DNA of 39,997 nucleotides, taken from NCBI GenBank assembly GCA_903854475.1, contig CAINWP010000026.1:1-39997 (forward strand), written 5' to 3'. The first letter of the stretch is position 1. Every line of letters begins with the position of its first letter. The position numbers were made by a program, and so were the translations under genes. Positions 5,282 through 39,997 of this stretch are shown here, one piece after another. The notes under the pieces are model-generated. The model worked only from the letters and a program-made list of their open reading frames with translations. It was not told where the DNA came from and did not search any database. The stretch comes from an uncultured Verrucomicrobiota bacterium (lineage in GTDB: Bacteria > Verrucomicrobiota > Verrucomicrobiia > Limisphaerales > UBA9464).

Positions 5282-5998
5282 TCATGGCAATTCCCGGATC
5301 CGCAAGTTCCGGAATTCGACCGGTGAGCCTTCGGACTCCAGGCACAGGAAGCCGCTGGCGGGTGAGCAACCGGTGCCACCGGAGACCTCCTCGCCATTGA
5401 CCCACAGGCGCACCTCGCCATTGATGGCGCGCACGTAGTAATGGTTCCACTCGCCCACGCCGCGGCTGAGGTTCTTGCGCGGGAAGCTGCGCATGCTGTT
5501 AGGTGCGACCGGTGGGAATGGCGTCATTCGGGCCGGCCCGGTCGGGAAGACATCACCGTGGGTCGTGAACCAATCGGCCTTCTTTTTGTAGTCGCGCTCG
5601 TACTGCTCGGTATAGCCGTGGTCGAGAACCTGAACCTCGATGCCGTCGGGCAGTCGTCCCCGGCCTGCTTCGAGATTCCGGATCGAAGTTTGGCTGGCCC
5701 ACAGGAAGACGCCGGAATTGCCGCCCGACTTCAGATGTCGCCATTCGGCGACCATCTCGAGGTTGGTGAACGACTGTTTCGAACGGATGACACCGACGGG
5801 TTGCCCAGTGCAGTTTACTCCGTTCGTGTGCCACGTGAACGTGTTGCTCGGGCAATTGACGGTCGTGAAATCGGCCTCCCCCAAGGCCCGCCATCCTAGG
5901 CCTGTCCCGTCGATCGTGGCCTTGGGAGCGATCACCTGTTCGGCAGCCAGAAGCGCGCCGGGAATCAGCAGGGAGGCCCATAACAGCCGGGGATTCAT
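5282..5998 (-). CDS. Secreted DUF1080 (3-keto-disaccharide hydrolase-like) protein
   Basis: The 238-residue protein opens with a signal peptide (MNPRLLWASLLIPGALLAA). The mature part resembles the DUF1080 / PF06439 jelly-roll family, many members of which act on 3-keto-glycosides. Visible family features include SGGNSGVFLWAS, the LPDGIEVQVLDHG strand, WNHYYVRAINGEVRLWVNGEEV and a C-terminal EFRNLRIREL. The activity is predicted to be exported. It fits functionally with the Gfo/Idh/MocA oxidoreductases at 8882-11973, because that superfamily includes enzymes oxidising sugars at C3, but the two loci are not one operon. The ATG start is supported by the signal peptide. Confidence 0.85.
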   Translation of the reverse strand: MNPRLLWASLLIPGALLAAEQVIAPKATIDGTGLGWRALGEADFTTVNCPSNTFTWHTNGVNCTGQPVGVIRSKQSFTNLEMVAEWRHLKSGGNSGVFLWASQTSIRNLEAGRGRLPDGIEVQVLDHGYTEQYERDYKKKADWFTTHGDVFPTGPARMTPFPPVAPNSMRSFPRKNLSRGVGEWNHYYVRAINGEVRLWVNGEEVSGGTGCSPASGFLCLESEGSPVEFRNLRIRELP

Positions 5999-8881: not shown

Positions 8882-10075
8882 TCAGACGGGCAACGGCCAA
8901 CGGAAGGTAGACTTCAAAGGAATAGTCCGACCACTGGCCGAGGAGGCGCGAGCCGCAGTGATGATTTCCAGGACGTGGAGAGCCTGCTCTGGGGTGGCCA
9001 AGAGTTCGTGGCCCGTCGCGAGGCACTCCGCCGCGAGGGCAGCTCCCTGTTGCCACACATATCCGCCCGGTTCGGTGCTTTCCCGAACCAATTGCGGACG
9101 CTCCAACGAGGCCCATTCAACGCCCTGCGGTGCCCAATCATAACCGACCATCCCTACGTACCCGCGACTGCCGGTGATCTGGATCGTGTGCCGTTTCTCA
9201 CCACTGCCGTCATGCCCGTGGGGGTTGAAGTAGTTGAAGCCCGACTGAACATGCGAGAGGACGCCCTTGCCGTGGTCCAGTAGCACCATGGCGTTGTCTT
9301 CCTCGGTGACCTGGATCTTGCCCTTTTCGTGGATGGTCCGCTCTGGGGTGACGATGCTCAAGAGGGCCGTGACCCTCCGTACCGGTCCCAGCAGTCCGGT
9401 AAGGCTGGTGAGGTTGTAGACCGCCAGATCCGGCAGGCTGCCTCCGCCCTTTTCGTAAAAGAACGACGACCAATCCGGACCTTCGTGACCATAGAAGGCA
9501 TGAGCCGCGGCGATGCGTCCCAAATCGCCGGAGGCCACTTTGCGGGCCATGAAGGCAAACTGCGGGCTTTGCACGGTGATTGGCGCGCCCCAGAGCCGGA
9601 GTTTGCGCCGCCTCGCCATCCGAAGAAGGTCTTGGCCCGCGTCAAGACTGTTGGCGATGGGCTTCTCGCTCCATACATGCTTGCCAGCCTGAAGGGCGCG
9701 TCGGTTGATGGACTCATGGGCCTGCATGTCGGTCAGGTCGATGAGGAATTCGAACGGTTCCCCGGCCAGCATGGCCTCGATGCTCGGGTAGTGGTGGGGG
9801 ACCTGATACGCTTCGGACTGTTTCCGGGCCCGCTCCGGTCGGATGTCAGCGACACTGACCAGATCGACAAACGGACAACGCTTGAGGACAGGAAGGTACT
9901 GGTTGGAGACGCTGCCGCAGCCGATGACTCCGGTCCGGATGCGTCGGGTTCCGGGCTCCGCAGCCTTCAGCGAAGACTCCCAGGGAGCCGCCGCGAACGC
10001 TCCGGCAGTCAGTAGGGAAGCCTTGGCAAAGTCGCGACGGGAGATGGTGGCGGAGACGGGTTCGGAAGAGTTCAT
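8882..10075 (-). CDS. Tat-exported Gfo/Idh/MocA family oxidoreductase
   Basis: This is an NAD(P)-dependent sugar- or cyclitol-type dehydrogenase; the substrate is unknown. The ATG at 10075 is preferred over an upstream open extension because it places a twin-arginine motif SRRDFAK at residues 12-18, followed by a hydrophobic alanine-rich stretch. The Rossmann nucleotide-binding motif GVIGCGSVSNQY is at 49-60 and the family EKP motif (VWSEKPIANS) at about 135-144. The 397-residue length is typical. It is the last gene of the minus-strand set with the rhodanese and the second oxidoreductase, although a 135-bp gap separates it from the rhodanese gene. Confidence 0.88.
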   Translation of the reverse strand: MNSSEPVSATISRRDFAKASLLTAGAFAAAPWESSLKAAEPGTRRIRTGVIGCGSVSNQYLPVLKRCPFVDLVSVADIRPERARKQSEAYQVPHHYPSIEAMLAGEPFEFLIDLTDMQAHESINRRALQAGKHVWSEKPIANSLDAGQDLLRMARRRKLRLWGAPITVQSPQFAFMARKVASGDLGRIAAAHAFYGHEGPDWSSFFYEKGGGSLPDLAVYNLTSLTGLLGPVRRVTALLSIVTPERTIHEKGKIQVTEEDNAMVLLDHGKGVLSHVQSGFNYFNPHGHDGSGEKRHTIQITGSRGYVGMVGYDWAPQGVEWASLERPQLVRESTEPGGYVWQQGAALAAECLATGHELLATPEQALHVLEIITAARASSASGRTIPLKSTFRWPLPV

Positions 10076-10210
10076 GTGGGGTGGGGTATGTGTTTTTCGA
10101 ATAGCTCCCAGAACCGGCTCCTTCAAGGTGAGACTGAAGAGGCGGGTGCACGACGAAGGCCGCCCGAAGTAATGGATCGTGCCCGAAGCCGGGACATCGT
10201 CCCGATGGGC

Positions 10211-10645
10211 TCAGCGCCCCTTCACGGGCTTGTGTCCGGCCGCTTCCCACGCGGTGATGCCGCCCGAGAGGTTTAGTACTTTTTCAAACTTCAGGCCGTC
10301 CATCTGGACGCAAGCCTTGGCGCTGCGCCCGCCCACGGCGCAATGGACGAGGTAGGTTTTGGACTTGTCCAAACCTGCGAGCGTCTCAGCAAACTTGCCT
10401 CCCCGGATGTCCAGGTTGATGGCACCCTGCATGTGGCCGTCGGCGTATTCTTCGGCGGTGCGCACATCCAGCACCACCACCTTGGCGTCCTTCCGCAGCG
10501 TCTCCCACTCAGCGACGTCGACGTTGCGGAACCGCTTGGCGGCGGGCGCCTCGGACGGCGTCTTCGCGGCGGGTTTGTCCGCGGCGGTCGACGGGAGGCA
10601 CAGGCTGGCCAGAGAAGCGGCCAAGAGGCACAAGAGGTTCTTCAT
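10211..10645 (-). CDS. Exported rhodanese-like domain protein
   Basis: The 144-residue protein has a signal peptide (MKNLLCLLAASLASLCLPSTA), an Ala/Pro/Lys linker and one rhodanese domain (about 40-140). The domain shows VVVLDVRTAEEYADGHMQGA, the active-site cysteine C102 in the loop HCAVGGRSAKA, and GGITAWEAAGHKPV. A six-residue loop after an intact cysteine fits a sulfurtransferase. Export would place it in the periplasm. The in-frame upstream extension to 10894 has no signal and overlaps the neighbouring gene, so the start at 10645 is used. It lies 41 bp downstream of a Gfo/Idh/MocA gene. Confidence 0.88.
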   Translation of the reverse strand: MKNLLCLLAASLASLCLPSTAADKPAAKTPSEAPAAKRFRNVDVAEWETLRKDAKVVVLDVRTAEEYADGHMQGAINLDIRGGKFAETLAGLDKSKTYLVHCAVGGRSAKACVQMDGLKFEKVLNLSGGITAWEAAGHKPVKGR

Positions 10646-10686
10646 TTGTAGGGGCGGTGAGGGGCTGAGTCTGTTCGATCCGTCGT

Positions 10687-11973
10687 TCAGGAAAGCTTCC
10701 AACCGGGGCGGTAGTCGTGGTGGATCCAGCGGTCGGCCTCCGGCAGGCCTCGGGCGCGCAGGTGTTTGGCATCCCACTCGATGACCTTCCCAGTGCGGAA
10801 GGCGAGGTTGCCTAGTTGTCCGATTTCGGTCAGGTGGCAGCCGTAGGTCAACGGGGAATCGGTCTTGCCGACGCCTTTGCAGGCGGCGATCCACTCTTCG
10901 TGATGGCCGATGGAATCCGGAATGGAGCGGGGCGGGGGAGTCGAACCGCGGAACTGTTCTTCGGGCAGCAATACGTAGCGGCCGTAGTCTGCCAAGAGCA
11001 TGCCCTTGTCACCGACGAAGAGCGTGCCACCTCCCCACTTGGAAAGGTCGGGAGCTCCAGGAACCTGGGGGCGCTTGGCGCCGCTATACCAGTGCATGCG
11101 CACGGCCGGGGCATTGCCGCGGGCCGGGAAGTCATAATGAACGATCATCCACGGCGGCGCACAGTGGGCGTCGGGGGCGGGCCCCTCGGCTTGGATGCGC
11201 GTGGGCAGTGGCAGATTTAGCGCCCACACGCCCAGATCCATGTGATGGCAGCAGAAGTCCGACAGGGTGCCGCCTCCGAAATGCCACCAACGGCGCCAAT
11301 TGAAGTGAACCCACTCCGCGCTGTAGGGCATGGGTTTCACGGGCCCCAGCCAGAGGTCGTAGTCGATATTAGACGGAACGGGCTGGATACCGGGCAGCGG
11401 CTTGGTTTCCCAAACCGATCCGGTCCAGTGGTGCACTTCACGGACCGCTCCGATGGTGCCCGCGCGAATTAATTCCACCACGCGCCGGTAGTTGGAACCG
11501 GAGTGGATTTGGTTGCCGGTTTGGGTCACCAATCCAGAGTGTGTGACTTTCGCAGCCAGGGCGCGGGCCTCGGAAATGGTGTGGGTGACAGGCTTTTCGC
11601 AGTAAAGAGGACGCCCTGAAGCCAGCACCGCCGTGGCGATCACCGCATGGCTGTGATCGGGCGTGCTCACCACGATGCCGTCGAGATCGGTGCGGTCGAG
11701 CAAGCGTCGGAAGTCGGCGTACTTGGCCGCGCCTGGGTGCTTGGCTGCGGCCGCCCCGAGCCGATCCGAGTCGATGTCGCACAGCGCAACGATGTTCTGG
11801 CTGGAGACCCCCGCCAGGTTTTCTCCACCCCGTCCAGCCACTCCGATGACACCCAGGTTGAGCCGTGCGTTCGGGGACACCTTGCGGGCCACCCGTGGTG
11901 CATGGCAACCGGCCGCGGCGGCGGCTCCGGCGATGGCGGCGGAGCGAAGGAACTGACGTCGATTGAGGGACAT
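10687..11973 (-). CDS. Tat-exported Gfo/Idh/MocA oxidoreductase, possible lipoprotein
   Basis: This is a second, longer oxidoreductase of the same superfamily (428 residues). From the ATG at 11973 it begins MSLNRRQFLRSAAIAG: a twin-arginine signal at residues 4-10 followed by AAAAGC with C23, which could serve as a lipobox cysteine. The nucleotide-binding GVIGVAGRGGENL is at 41-53 and the YCEKPVTHT motif at about 124-132. The C-terminal half contains the WFGG-type text (WWHFGGGTLSDFCCHHMDL) common in PVC secreted oxidoreductases. It lies 46 bp downstream of the cytochrome/SUMF1 gene, which suggests co-transcription. Substrate unknown. Confidence 0.88.
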   Translation of the reverse strand: MSLNRRQFLRSAAIAGAAAAAGCHAPRVARKVSPNARLNLGVIGVAGRGGENLAGVSSQNIVALCDIDSDRLGAAAAKHPGAAKYADFRRLLDRTDLDGIVVSTPDHSHAVIATAVLASGRPLYCEKPVTHTISEARALAAKVTHSGLVTQTGNQIHSGSNYRRVVELIRAGTIGAVREVHHWTGSVWETKPLPGIQPVPSNIDYDLWLGPVKPMPYSAEWVHFNWRRWWHFGGGTLSDFCCHHMDLGVWALNLPLPTRIQAEGPAPDAHCAPPWMIVHYDFPARGNAPAVRMHWYSGAKRPQVPGAPDLSKWGGGTLFVGDKGMLLADYGRYVLLPEEQFRGSTPPPRSIPDSIGHHEEWIAACKGVGKTDSPLTYGCHLTEIGQLGNLAFRTGKVIEWDAKHLRARGLPEADRWIHHDYRPGWKLS

Positions 11974-12019: not shown

Positions 12020-13777
12020 TCACGGTTTGGGCGGCGGGAAGCTGGTCCAGCACTGTTCCATCTCGTCACGAGAAGGTACTTTCAATGGGCGTACGATGCG
12101 GAAGCCCAGGAACTGAGCATCGGTCAGGTACCACTTAGATTTGGGCAACTGAGGATCGCGCATCTTCCAGCTCGCATCACTGGCGCGACGGGTCGCACTC
12201 CGGAGGGCATCCGGTTCGTCGTCCCAAGAACCGCCGCGGGCCACATGGGGATACTCGGCGGCACCCGGGGTGTAGGGAACGTCACCCACCTTAGAGTAGT
12301 CTTCCACGTAGGCGTCCAATACCCATTCGGCCACGTTGCCGTGCATGTCGTAGAGGCCCCAGGGATTCGGCTTTTTCTTGCCCACCAGTTGGTACTTCTC
12401 ACCCGCGTTGGTAAAGTGCCACGCGTACTCACCCAGCTTGGAGTCGTCGTCGCCGAAGGAATACTTGGTGGTGGTGCCAGCCCGGCAGGCGTATTCCCAT
12501 TCAGCCTCGGTCGCCAAACGGTAGAAGTGCCCGGTCTTGGCGGTGAGCCACTTGCAGTACTTCACGGCTGCATAATGGGTCATGGAGATGGCTGGGAAGT
12601 TCTCCTTGCCCATGCCGAAACTCATCTCGACGTACGGAGTCGTCGGACGGGACACGGCGTCGGATTCCTTGCCGATGTACGGATTGACCCCGGGCTGGGC
12701 GTTGGCCGGCAGCAACTCGGGCAAAGCCAGCCAGAGTTCCCGTTCCATGCGCTCGGTAGGAACATTGGTTCCTTTTTCCAGCGAGGGAAACTGGAAGAGT
12801 TCGTACTCGTTCCAGGTGACTTCGGTTTTACCCATCCAGAACGGCTCGATCTTCACCTTGCGCTGCGGACCCTCGTCCGCCTTGCGCTTGCCCTCGGAGG
12901 CAGGGCTCCCCATCAGGAATTCGCCTGCAGGAATCGGCAGCATGTCGAATTTGACGTCGGATCCCGTGATAGGGTCGCTGTACGCCTTCATGTCGGCGGC
13001 GCTAACCTCTTTCGACACGGCCAGCACCCGGGCATGGATGGCGCTGATCATGGCGTCGTTGTCGCGGGTCATCAGGGATGCGGCCTCCTTCTGGCTGAGG
13101 GTCACACCGTCCGGCCATTCTGCGCCTTGGTCGATCCAGTTCCGGATGAGGTCGGTCTTGGACTTCGGCAGCGGCCCACCCTTCTTGGCCGGCGGCATCA
13201 AGTCGTCGTGGTCGGCCGGAAGAACGGTGCTGGTGTAGATCTTAGAGGCCTCGGCGTCACCGGGTACGATGGTCTTGGAGGCGAAGAATTCAGCCTTGGA
13301 GTCCATGCGCAGGTCCCCCTTGGCGTGGCCTTCCTTGTGACAGGTGACGCAGTGTACCTCAAAGATCGGCTTCACTTCCTTGACGAAGTCTACCTTCTGC
13401 TTTTGGGAGAGACGGAGGGATTCCGGCCATGCGGCACCCTCTTGAATCCAAGTCTTCAGGGTCTCTTGCTGCTGGGCACTGAGCCGGTCGCCCTTGGGTG
13501 GCATCAGGTCATCATGACCGTCGGGCAGAGTGGTCGTCGTGTAGATCTTGCTTTTGGCTGGGTCGCCTGGAACCAACGCGGTCCCATGCTCACCGCCTTT
13601 GATGGTGTCGGCACGGGTCACCATGACCAAGTCCGCCTTAGGCTTTTCGGTGCCATGGCACTTGAGGCAGTTCACCTCGAGGATGGGGCGGACCTGTTTC
13701 TTAAAGTCCACCGGGTCCGCCGCGTTGAGGATCAATCCCGCGGCGAGGGTGGTGGTGATGGCGACGAATCGGTTCAT
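12020..13777 (-). CDS. Duplicated planctomycete-type cytochrome c domain fused to SUMF1 domain
   Basis: The 585-residue exported protein begins with a signal peptide ([19 protein letters not shown]). Two similar cytochrome-like modules follow, about residues 23-121 and 129-226. Each has one haem-binding CxxCH (CLKCH at 37-41, CVTCH at 143-147), a SKIYT...LP..HDDLMPP segment and a WI.(E/Q)GAxWP tail, so they arose by internal duplication. From about 278 a formylglycine-generating-enzyme/SUMF1-like domain runs to the end ([42 protein letters not shown]). The SUMF1 catalytic cysteine region reads [12 protein letters not shown] without cysteine, so sulfatase activation is unlikely. It heads the likely minus-strand operon with the oxidoreductases. 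Confidence 0.88.
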
Positions 13778-13923
13778 GGAGTTTTGTCGGAGGAGAGGAT
13801 ACCGCCGGGCCGGTTGCCGGTGTCAAATGCGGTGACGCCCCGGAAGCACGAAAGCTTCAACGGGGATTGTAGGTTTTTTTTTGCCGGTAAACCGATCGAA
13901 GCGGACGGCAGTCGAGGCGTGAT

Positions 13924-14700
13924 CTATTGCCCCCCACCGATCTTGGGATCGAGCCAGGGGGTCGCTCCCCAATACCAACGGGAACTCTTGAGCAGTTCGA
14001 CGTGTCCCTCGCCAAAGGCGACCACGCTCTTTCCTGTATGACGCAACTGGGGCCCGCCCCAGTTCGGGTCGTCCGAGGTGACGCAGCCGCCGCAAGGGGC
14101 GTCGTTAATGGGATCGTGCAGCACCCAGGCACCTGCTTTCTCTGGGGATTTTTCGGTCACACACTTCAGTGGATCCTTCGCGTCCGAGCTCTTGGGCTTG
14201 GTGCCGCCATCGGTAATGACCACGGTCGCCGAAGGGGAAGCCATACTGGAATCTTTCACCGAGGCGTAGTCCTTGACGTCCCAAACGTTTGGCCAATCGC
14301 ACCCGCCTACTTTAAAGTTCATCGAGTAGTTGGAAATCATCTTGTCCGGTTGATCCGAGGCGTAGATGGCCCAGCTCTTCTTGAACCCCGGGGTCTTGGT
14401 GGGGCAAATGACGATGTTGGTCGTCTGCAAGTAGGGCTTGAGGAAGTTGAACCACAGTCGACGGTTCACGTTGTCACCCCGGACCCAGAACGTGGGCGTG
14501 AAGTATCCTTGGTTGTCCGAAGCGTAGAGAGCTTCCGAGATCATCACTTGCCTGAGGTTGCTCAGACAGTTGGATGATTTGGCCTTTTCCTTGGCTCGTG
14601 CCAAGGCCGGCAGGAGCATCCCGGCGAGGATGGCGATGATGGCGATGACCACGAGCAATTCGATCAGGGTGAAACCTGTCTGACGCCGGCGGGGATTCAT
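13924..14700 (-). CDS. Type II secretion-like pseudopilin with H-x9-EG tail
   Basis: The protein starts [20 protein letters not shown], a type III (prepilin) signal with the cleavage site G9|F10 and E14 at the +5 position, followed by one hydrophobic helix. The 258-residue length and the tail [18 protein letters not shown] plus [11 protein letters not shown] match the pseudopilin class, abundant in Verrucomicrobiota and Planctomycetes, that usually ends in H-x9-DG. Here the pair is EG. These proteins are often present in dozens of copies per genome and their role is unclear. It is transcribed divergently from ruvA. Confidence 0.9.
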
Positions 14701-20145: not shown

Positions 20146-20233
20146 TGGTTGGAGATCTGTTTCAGACGGTGAGATGGGTTCACCCCTCACCTTGACTCTG
20201 CTTCTTCCTACATCGATATCTGCCCAGCAAACT

Positions 20234-20728
20234 ATGGTGTGCCAGTTCTGCAAGCTGAAGGAGGCGACGGTCCACGTGACCGAAATTGCCGACAACAAGG
20301 TCAAGAAGGTCGATGCCTGCGCCGCGTGTGCGAAGGACAAGAACTACAATGACCCGGCCGCCTTCGCCATCGCTGATCACCTTCTTGGTCTGGGCGCCGC
20401 CCAGAAGATGGAGGAGGCTTCTGAGGCAGTGGGAGCCCTCTCGTGTGACCAGTGCGGGTACACTCAGGCCGACTTCAAGAAGAGCGGCCGTTTGGGTTGC
20501 GCTCATTGCTACGGCATTTTTTCCGACGGCTTGGATTCGGTGCTCAAGACCATGCACAAGGATATCCGCCACCGTGGCAAGGTGCCGGCAGGGATGAAAA
20601 GTGCCTTTGAGGGTGCGCACAGACTTCAGGGTCTCAATCGCGACCTTCAGGTAGCGATCGCCCAGGAGGACTTCGAATCGGCCGCCCGGTTGCGTGACGA
20701 AATCAAAGCCTTCAAGGCTTCTGAATAA
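20234..20728 (+). CDS. mcsA: McsA-like zinc-finger protein with UVR motif
   Basis: McsA is the activator or adaptor of the protein-arginine kinase McsB. From the ATG at 20234 the 164 residues contain four CxxC pairs (C3/C6, C29/C32, C71/C74, C89/C92) in the family spacing, including LSCDQCGYTQADFKKSGRLG. A C-terminal UvrB/UvrC motif (LQVAIAQEDFESAARLRDEI) ends the protein. The frame is open to 20174, but that extension lacks family similarity. The mcsB start follows 10 bp after the stop. ctsR and clpC, the usual Firmicutes partners, are not nearby. Confidence 0.92.
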   Translation: MVCQFCKLKEATVHVTEIADNKVKKVDACAACAKDKNYNDPAAFAIADHLLGLGAAQKMEEASEAVGALSCDQCGYTQADFKKSGRLGCAHCYGIFSDGLDSVLKTMHKDIRHRGKVPAGMKSAFEGAHRLQGLNRDLQVAIAQEDFESAARLRDEIKAFKASE

Positions 20729-20738
20729 TTCCTCCGAT

Positions 20739-21854
20739 ATGAGCGTTATCGATTTTCTGGTCCCCGCCTCCGAGGCCTGCCTGCGCAGTGGCCCTCACGA
20801 TAAAATCGTGCTCTCTAGCCGAGTTCGTCTGGCGCGAAATCTCCGAACCGTACCTTTCCCGAGCCATTCCAAGAAGGCGGAGCGAATCAAGGCCTTTGAG
20901 ACACTGATGCCTGAGGTCAAATCTCTGACCTTGCTGGGGCCGGAGATTTTTGCCGAATCGATGGACAAGTTGCCCGCCCTGGACAAACAGGTGCTTGTGG
21001 AACGGCATCTTATCAGCCGTGAACACGCGGCCAAGAATGCCGGCAGCGGCATTGTGCTGAACCGTGAAGAGAACGTCTGCGTGATGGTCAATGAAGAGGA
21101 CCATTTGCGGATTCAGGCACTGCGGCCCGGGCTCCAACTGCGGCAGGCCTGGATGGCCATTGATGCCGTCGATACGGCCCTGCAGGAGAAGGTCGAGTTC
21201 GCCTTCTCCGAGCGTTACGGGTTCCTGACAGCCTGCCCCACCAATCTGGGCACCGGCATCCGTGTGAGCGCTATGCTCCACCTTCCTGGCTTGGTCTTGG
21301 CCGAGCAGATAAACCAGATTATCCAAGCCGTTAACAAGTTGGGGTTGGCAGTGCGCGGCCTCTATGGCGAGGGCACCGAGGCGCTGGGCAATGTCTTTCA
21401 GGTCTCCAATCAGATGACCCTTGGGGAGCCGGAAAACGACATCGTCGAACGCATCAACAAGGTTCTGCTCCAGATCATTGAGCACGAAGAAAACGCGCGA
21501 CTCTCCCAGATGGAGAAGAAGCCCGCTGTATTGCTCAACCACATTGGTCGTGCCTACGGCGTGTTGGGAAACAGTTGGAGCATTTCTTCCAAGGAGGCCA
21601 TGAATCTGATCAGCTTCCTGCGGCTCGGCGTTGACCTGGGGGTTTTCGGCAAAACGCCGAAGTCGCTCACCGACGAACTCTTCCTCCGCAGCCAGCCGGC
21701 CCACCTTCAGCTGGCGCATCCACTTCGCGAGAAGCTAGGTTCCGATGAGCGAGACTTGTTCCGGGCTCAGATGCTCCGTGAGCGGACCTCGCTAATTCCC
21801 AGTCCCGATCCCCAGGCCTTGCTGGGGCGGCGCGACGAGGGATCTCCTGAGTAA
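20739..21854 (+). CDS. mcsB: Protein arginine kinase McsB
   Basis: McsB phosphorylates arginine residues; in Bacillus this marks proteins for ClpCP degradation. The 371-residue protein belongs to the ATP:guanido phosphotransferase fold. It has LSSRVRLARNLRTVPFP at about 25-41, ISREHAAKNAGSGIVLNREE, and the catalytic cysteine loop in LTACPTNLGTGIRVSAMLHL. The C-terminal half has GLYGEGTEALGNVFQVSNQ and RSQPAHLQLAHP. The ATG at 20739 gives the family N-terminus and avoids overlap with mcsA. The pair completes the run that begins with rpmH. Confidence 0.95.
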   Translation: MSVIDFLVPASEACLRSGPHDKIVLSSRVRLARNLRTVPFPSHSKKAERIKAFETLMPEVKSLTLLGPEIFAESMDKLPALDKQVLVERHLISREHAAKNAGSGIVLNREENVCVMVNEEDHLRIQALRPGLQLRQAWMAIDAVDTALQEKVEFAFSERYGFLTACPTNLGTGIRVSAMLHLPGLVLAEQINQIIQAVNKLGLAVRGLYGEGTEALGNVFQVSNQMTLGEPENDIVERINKVLLQIIEHEENARLSQMEKKPAVLLNHIGRAYGVLGNSWSISSKEAMNLISFLRLGVDLGVFGKTPKSLTDELFLRSQPAHLQLAHPLREKLGSDERDLFRAQMLRERTSLIPSPDPQALLGRRDEGSPE

Positions 21855-39459: not shown

Positions 39460-39690
39460 TTACGGTAGGAGGGCGACTAGCTGACGGTTGGTCATCGAAG
39501 GCAGGCGGTTCAGGACATCCTTGAGGTAGGCATACGGATAGATTCCCGGCCGACGGTAGACTCGATCACCGGCCCCGGCTTCTCCGACGAACAACCAGTT
39601 CCGCTTACCCAGCGCCGTGGGCCGGATCGCATTATCGACATGGTTGTTGTCGACCTCAACACGTCCGTCGGTGGTGAACTTGTTCACCTC
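39460..39690 (-). pseudogene. Decayed C-terminal fragment of an IS66-family transposase
   Basis: The translated fragment reads KFTTDGRVEVDNNHVDNAIR, ALGKRNWLFVGEAGAGDRVY and PYAYLKDVLNRLPSMT. This matches the C-terminal end of IS66 TnpC (DDE family), including the DNN...ENAIRP and GRKNWLF blocks. The expected segment between GA...R and PYAYL (normally about 18 residues with LIETC-like text) is shortened, and no transposase sequence is recognisable upstream of 39690, where the frame continues into unrelated codons. It is a remnant, not an active element. GTATGCGCATG at 39440-39450 could be the old terminal repeat, but that is uncertain. Confidence 0.75.
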
Positions 39691-39997
39691 AGACTCTGGC
39701 TGGTTTTGACCGCCCGCTGACACGACGACTTTGCCTGCGATGAGAAAGCCCCGAACTTTCGATACGAGACCGACGAAAATCAGGGGTTTTATGCAGTTTC
39801 TTAATCTTACGAAACACCTTGATTGCACCTTAACGCTTCTCAAGTGTCACCGGTGCAAATTCTGTCGACGCCGAGGATCGACCCCGCTTGGCACTAGAAA
39901 GGTCTCCAAGCCGCCCCGATCTTGGGAGCGTGGCTACCCACTGAAAGTAGCGAGAAACCAAAACAAGCGTCCCTGTAAAAAGTCTGTCGGGACGGAC
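39691..39997. other. 307-bp region at the right edge without a recognised gene
   Basis: I see no gene. Near the edge, CGTCCC (39968-39973) and GGGACG (39989-39994) form a small hairpin preceded by CAAG. The string CAAGCGTCCCTG loosely resembles IS66 terminal repeats, which begin GTAAGCG. The area may therefore be IS debris continuing beyond the window. Confidence 0.4.

Follow-up and report, generated by a model that had tools for sequence, protein, structure and literature searches.

Exported NAD-dependent sugar dehydrogenases of the Gfo/Idh/MocA family are very numerous in Planctomycetes, Verrucomicrobia and Bacteroidetes, and such an enzyme must reoxidise its NADH in place; to our knowledge, the disposal of electrons by exported Gfo proteins outside the cytoplasm appears to be an unsolved problem. 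The usual converter of a hydride into single electrons is a flavin, and the usual next carrier is a haem c. The available part of PMC11300592 presents BT2158 as a glycoside 3-dehydrogenase of the periplasm. The extracytosolic carriers flavinylated by ApbE (FAD:protein FMN transferase), as far as they are named in the available parts of the literature, are FMN_bind, DUF2271, DUF3570, Flavodoxin_4 and FMN_red. The recognition sequence of ApbE given in the available sections of the review PMC12052999 is D-x-x-[ST]-G-A-[ST], with the FMN placed on the last residue, and the changes of G to A and of A to V in this motif are stated there to halve flavinylation. The SUMF1 fold is not among the ApbE substrates described in the accessible portions of PMC8238504, PMC11334425 and PMC12052999; the main text of the first makes no mention of sulfatase, SUMF, FGE or Gfo, and that of the second none of formylglycine, sulfatase or Gfo. 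A system composed of SUMF1, Gfo and ApbE, with or without haem, was not found described in the open-licence PMC literature, and the relay proposed below would belong, as a variant, to the extracytosolic electron-transfer modules.

The window, i.e. the whole stretch of 39,997 nucleotides analysed here, was taken from an uncultured Verrucomicrobiota bacterium and carries on its minus strand (12020..13777, stop codon included) a gene with an ATG start for a protein of 585 aa, as read from the ORF list and its translation, in which two predicted haem-c modules are joined to a SUMF1 domain. We propose, with a probability of roughly 0.4, that this fusion protein relays electrons, in the periplasm or on the outer surface, for Tat-exported Gfo/Idh/MocA sugar dehydrogenases. 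Export had been claimed in the original prediction, and it agrees with a predicted signal peptide of the Sec type at residues 1-20 (13718..13777, minus strand), recognised by eye in the translation. Comparison with the genomes of relatives indicated that the length, the start and the architecture of the gene are alike in nearly all members of the genus. A search for the same domain order, which the original prediction had called for, showed that the haem-SUMF1 fusion is conserved across the genus and the family and is thus not a one-off, 57 of 59 relatives giving a match at E up to 1e-20, in several order-level genomes over a part of the length. An antisense open frame of 598 aa spans the whole fusion gene on the plus strand (12245-14041), and antisense frames of at least 600 aa are present in relatives too; this frame is most likely an effect of the composition of the coding strand.

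The presence of two tandem PSCyt1 modules, claimed from the letters of the sequence, was borne out by Pfam, in which the fusion protein matches PF07635 in two stretches with 85.3 bits (cut-off 22), both over the full profile. By Pfam, genome profile search and alignment, module 1 occupies residues 37-96 (13490..13669, minus strand) with CLKCH and HDDLMPP, and module 2 occupies residues 143-197 (13187..13351, minus strand) with CVTCH and HDDLMPP; the CxxCH and M-P-P columns are invariant in both modules of all 9 aligned double-module proteins. When modelled alone, the haem half gave a pLDDT of 80.9 and no Foldseek match at E < 0.001, while all 23 rows of its VIA list were c-type cytochromes or cytochrome-containing enzymes, with weak scores (best Z 7.8, FoxE). 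Because the cytochrome matches are weak and Foldseek returned none at this threshold, a cytochrome-c-like fold of the haem half is plausible from the model, not proven. The N-terminal modules agree with the PSCyt1 family in profile coverage, CxxCH and MPP, and the difference from that family lies in the joining of a tandem pair to a SUMF1 domain. The genome from which the window derives holds 40 PSCyt1 matches, and those other than the fusion protein are located mostly in frames of 600-1,400 aa, along with a few short proteins. One short protein (L112:3182-3994, on C80) of 270 aa carries two PSCyt1 modules without SUMF1 and matches the haem half at 33%; judged by sequence, it is possibly a stand-alone form of the relay.

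The C-terminal part, for which a SUMF1-like domain had been predicted, matches FGE-sulfatase PF03781 over residues 278-536 with 136 bits (cut-off 23.3), and the AlphaFold2 model of the whole protein (mean pLDDT 88.2, pTM 0.71) agrees with this assignment, since VIA-align extends the SUMF1 or C-type-lectin-like fold over residues 260-568 (12074..13000, minus strand). The nearest solved structure was PvdO (5hha), with Z 29.2 and an rmsd of 2.4 over 244 residues, followed by true formylglycine-generating enzymes (FGEs) with Z of about 24 over about 228 residues (fusion-protein region 259-567); strong fold matches were also obtained to the T. denticola variable protein and to PorK. A carbohydrate-binding surface role, also raised in the original prediction, may apply to the fusion protein, with the modelled fold as its sole basis.

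The match to PF03781 and the shared fold could be taken to mean that the protein generates formylglycine for sulfatases, with the haem modules handling its redox chemistry, and this we consider very improbable. At the positions of the FGE catalytic cysteines (C336/C341 in the human numbering, taken from PDB titles) the fusion protein reads DEPDAL (residues 520-525; 12203..12220, minus strand), so that D520 and L525 occupy the places of the catalytic, copper-binding pair, whereas the intact FGE encoded separately in the same genome (L135), one of five SUMF1 proteins found there besides the fusion protein, reads GGSFLCSDQYC and has both. At the level of the known mechanism the missing pair rules out the FGE role, and no sulfatase was found among the neighbour clusters present in at least 5 loci. 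The domain had been called cysteine-less, and this holds for the catalytic pair; it is not literally true, because C408 and C431 are present and conserved (79 and 89 of 93 family rows, respectively), and one further Cys lies close to the C terminus.

The family is further set apart from FGE by a family-specific insertion with the segment D-x-x-[ST]-x-[PA]-[ST], and by the C-terminal signature D541-P-Q-x-P-x-S-x-W549 (12131..12157, minus strand), of which positions 541, 542, 545, 547 and 549 are invariant in all 64 aligned family sequences. Over the same 64 sequences 33 columns are invariant, many of them polar, including R420, E424, N471, D477, N481, E484, R530, W537 and D541. Together with PvdO (dihydropyoverdine dehydrogenase) as the nearest solved fold and best NCBIfam match, and with the xylose-isomerase-like and 3-keto-disaccharide-hydrolase neighbours described below, which suggest a multi-step sugar pathway, these columns favour an enzyme like PvdO, whose active site would be a new one, working as an oxidase or dehydrogenase on the product of the Gfo and giving up its electrons to the haems. 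The score of 109.4 bits is far under the PvdO equivalog cut-off of 500, many of the invariant residues sit in the general SUMF1 core and are common to other SUMF1 proteins in the alignments, and an ApbE encoded nearby would be left unexplained; we therefore hold such an enzyme to be unlikely. We know of neither haem modules nor a Gfo partner in PvdO.

The fusion gene is followed after 46 bp by the gene for a Gfo/Idh/MocA oxidoreductase of 428 aa (10687..11973, minus strand; Pfam, type B), predicted to be Tat-exported as had been claimed, with a TAT_signal score of 19.7 bits that is just below the cut-off. This Gfo resembles the BT_2158 glycoside 3-dehydrogenase over nearly its whole length (profile 1-433 of 487 in NF058561), yet stays under the equivalog cut-off with 291.3 bits against 750. 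Next downstream lies an exported rhodanese-domain protein (10211..10894, minus strand; ORF list, Pfam), the true start of which is probably the internal MKNLLCLL. By a hand count from coordinates, 17 of the 19 genomes in the genus, among them the window's own, have a Gfo of the window type beside the fusion gene; in the other two (G008 and G009) it is absent there and the rhodanese follows directly. A second Tat-type Gfo/Idh/MocA protein of the window (8882-10126, minus strand; PF01408, 70.6 bits) belongs to a subfamily different from that of 10687-11973.

The wider SUMF1 family is represented by 80 loci (L031-L110), obtained by a scan of a one-per-species genome collection and belonging to Verrucomicrobiota, Planctomycetota, Acidobacteriota, Bacteroidota, Balneolota and Rhodothermota. 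A Gfo gene was located on the same strand within 350 bp of the SUMF1 gene in 56 of the 80 loci, across several phyla, as counted with a Gfo HMM that was seeded from the neighbour Gfos themselves; by neighbour clustering, it was the next gene downstream in 47. Pfam or NCBIfam checks covered the window's two Gfos and ten others that are partners or neighbours, and NCBIfam gave weak matches for the partner Gfo, the best being inositol 2-dehydrogenase, far under the cut-off. Most of the partner Gfos belong together in a single subfamily, with an identity of about 51-63% to the partner in locus L031 (34-39% for some), and every one of the 51 that were aligned has the Tat RR pair. The conserved partner belongs to a subfamily other than that of BT_2158, and the window's neighbour Gfo shares 22% identity with the L031 partner. 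Since the neighbour is genus-specific and another Gfo subfamily is the conserved neighbour, the protein encoded at 10687-11973 is weakened as the partner in question. The tie to an exported oxidoreductase, expected in the original prediction, holds statistically for the SUMF1 family and is weakened for the particular Gfo to which it had been assigned. In the window genome, which holds 30 Gfo genes, the conserved partner is present at an unlinked site (G000:C247:16276-17583) and is 70% identical to that of L031. Among 40 relatives outside the genus, the partner Gfo is linked to the SUMF1 gene in 22 (hand count from coordinates). In L067 and L068, two loci of Flavobacteriaceae, the SUMF1 gene has Gfo genes of both kinds as its flanking neighbours.

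With 40 PSCyt1 matches and 30 Gfo genes in one genome, and with a neighbour Gfo confined to the genus, the adjacency seen in the window could be meaningless and the fusion protein one of many cytochromes. Such a chance neighbourhood is improbable, since one Gfo subfamily adjoins the SUMF1 gene family-wide in many phyla and since the two also co-occur phyletically. Of 383 genomes sampled from the phylum, 41 had the SUMF1 family (E up to 1e-60) and 25 the partner Gfo (E up to 1e-120), with a hand-counted overlap of 22 (hypergeometric p 1.5e-21, relatedness being ignored). The co-occurrence with oxidoreductases in other genomes, named earlier as a check on the prediction, is thus seen, 22 of the 25 partner-bearing genomes having the SUMF1 family as well. 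The SUMF1 genomes that lack the partner number 19 of 41, and 14 of these fall in one genus, probably Akkermansia. Akkermansia-like genomes (L142, L143, L081) have haem-less members of the SUMF1 family and lack the partner Gfo. The Gfo link of the SUMF1 family is well supported.

The haem modules are a variable part of the family. Most members outside the haem-fused clade have the SUMF1 domain by itself, and when 107 sequences were sorted by N-terminal type, 65 lacked both haem modules and a long extension, 26 had two CxxCH, 10 had one CxxCH, and 6 had a long N-terminal part without CxxCH, for which weak FG-GAP Pfam matches were obtained in the 3 tested. The Opitutales trio L036-L038, which is haem-fused, is placed among haem-less planctomycete proteins and does not join the main clade of fused proteins (support 99), so by this tree the haem fusion arose at least twice, a recurrence that speaks for electron carriers as the working partners of the SUMF1 protein. 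Judged from the sequences, the N-terminal part can be exchanged: in some members of the order (L119, L120, L121, L122, L129 and L041) the haem modules give way to a long extension with weak FG-GAP matches, and the Gfo still adjoins in several. Near haem-less members, CxxCH occurred in just 14 of 641 neighbour ORFs, and therefore no conserved separate cytochrome was found among these ORFs.

The second commonest neighbour of the SUMF1 gene is ApbE, in 29 of the 80 loci; six of the 29 were scanned and all match Pfam PF02424, and the others were assigned by blastp clustering. A total of 84 ApbE matches was found in 40 genomes, i.e. about 2.1 per genome, from which less than one ApbE locus would be expected by chance among the 641 neighbour ORFs, as roughly estimated with genomes taken to hold about 3,500 genes. 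A segment in the register of the ApbE motif was recognised within the family-specific insertion of the SUMF1 domain by comparing the family alignment with the canonical motif of PMC12052999, and in the fusion protein it reads DAVSRPT (residues 373-379; 12641..12661, minus strand). In all 93 aligned rows an acidic residue at 373 (D 89, E 4) and a Thr or Ser at 379 (T 74, S 19) are kept six residues apart, and between them column 376 is S in 41, T in 39 and A in 10 rows (S or T in 80), column 377 is R in 54, K in 8 and G in 8, with others in the rest, and column 378 is P in 80 and A in 12. The alignments revealed no counterpart of this segment in the five other SUMF1 proteins of the window genome. 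The exact motif is carried by 8 of 110 SUMF1 proteins (DAVSGAT, DAISGAT, DGVSGAT) and by none of the 641 neighbour ORFs, so that no other ApbE substrate was seen in these loci by this motif. The SUMF1 family thus resembles the described ApbE-flavinylated carriers in being exported, in being encoded with ApbE and in its conserved D...[ST], with the exact motif in some members, and it differs from them in that most members have x-P, not G-A. The fusion protein itself is without the exact motif, having R-P where G-A is proven, and with flavinylation cut to half by the single changes of G to A and of A to V, a segment with R-P may escape modification altogether. On this divergent motif, T379 is put forward as the candidate FMN acceptor, a hypothesis.

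The loci with the exact motif differ from those with an adjoining ApbE. ApbE adjoins in none of 12 loci of members with Ala at 378 and in 29 of the 68 others (p 0.003). A tree was constructed from 80 fetched ApbEs and the two of the window genome; of the 84, four were left out, namely one below the cut-off, two weak or partial ones and a full match from L058, which is under-sampled for this reason. Of 15 identified adjacent ApbEs, 13 group with the window genome's L144 in a 21-tip clade (support 0.97), and the other two are in a second clade of 6 tips (support 1.0). The catalytic residues are retained in the 21-tip clade (Ser 20/21, His 21/21, Asp 21/21), which holds none of the 13 ApbEs from Ala-378 genomes; of 30 Pro-378 genomes, 20 are represented in it and 18 in its 19-tip core (p 0.0008 for the core). 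Exceptions are some Pro-378 genomes with no ApbE of either adjacent-type clade, namely, when the broader clade is used, L050, L058 (incompletely sampled), L062 and L076. On the simplest reading of these patterns, x-P-[ST] would be served by an ApbE of its own and G-A-[ST] by a general one; the co-variation at Ala-378 is perhaps a single event, because all 10 Ala-378 genomes tested belong to one part of Bacteroidota. The window genome has two copies of ApbE, and the fusion gene, the partner Gfo and ApbE are all unlinked there.

In the relay that we propose, the Gfo would oxidise a sugar hydroxyl outside the cytoplasm and keep the NADH in its pocket, by analogy with BT_2158-type glycoside 3-dehydrogenases; the SUMF1 domain, with its copper-cysteine site lost, would dock the Gfo and accept the hydride on an FMN, which ApbE might load on T379 within DAVSRPT. 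This FMN would split the electron pair and pass single electrons to the two N-terminal haem-c modules and from these to the respiratory chain, as the domain content suggests. Haem-less SUMF1 proteins, which prevail in most phyla, would hand the electrons to a separate acceptor, while in Verrucomicrobia the acceptor would be fused on. Given the usual roles of flavin and haem c stated above, the order from Gfo through FMN to two haems is chemically sensible for the parts found. The FMN step is hypothetical, being built on the divergent motif, and as to the substrate a glycoside is the best guess from the 3-keto-sugar context, i.e. the BT_2158-like neighbour and the PF06439 hydrolase. For the SUMF1 family as a whole, we tentatively suggest a covalent flavoprotein that carries FMN on the segment-final Thr or Ser (put there by the dedicated ApbE clade at x-P-[ST] and by ordinary ApbE at G-A-[ST]), that reoxidises the NADH held by the Gfo, and that has one or two haems c in the same polypeptide in Verrucomicrobia and in a few lineages besides.

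Almost as probable is a haem relay without flavin, in which SUMF1 is a dead docking or structural module, like GldK or PorK, that binds the Gfo or a glycan, the segment is a structural turn and the haems are fed by another carrier. The SUMF1 fold has structural and ligand-binding roles elsewhere, as in the T. denticola variable protein and PorK; most members do without G-A in the motif; and the linkage to Gfo holds without any flavin. Transfer from hydride to haem, however, needs a converter from two electrons to one, and such a relay does not account for the ApbE genes that adjoin in 29 of 80 loci, for the invariant pair of acidic residue and Thr or Ser, or for the occurrence of the exact motif in the same column of 8 proteins. 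The conserved SUMF1-Gfo-ApbE module, fused to haem in some lineages, is a concrete candidate for the electron outlet of exported Gfo proteins. If the flavoprotein reading is true, the ApbE substrates would gain a further fold, and ApbE possibly a second specificity, x-P-[ST].

The third neighbour, found in 19 of the 80 loci, is a TIM-barrel protein, of which the two scanned match PF01261 and are xylose-isomerase-like; it is exported, for instance at L059:8328-9239, and belongs to loci of Bacteroidota and Balneolota. An exported 3-keto-disaccharide hydrolase (5282-5998, minus strand; PF06439, 94 bits) lies 4.7 kb from the BT_2158-like Gfo in the window, so that, as annotated from sequence matches, putative parts of a 3-keto glycoside pathway are scattered in the window. 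Apart from these, the window carries an ATP:guanido phosphotransferase (20174-21854, plus strand; PF00217) directly after a small Cys-rich protein, which looks like an arginine kinase pair of the McsA/McsB kind, and, at the contig end, a fragment of an IS66-type transposase (39460-39843, minus strand; PF03050).
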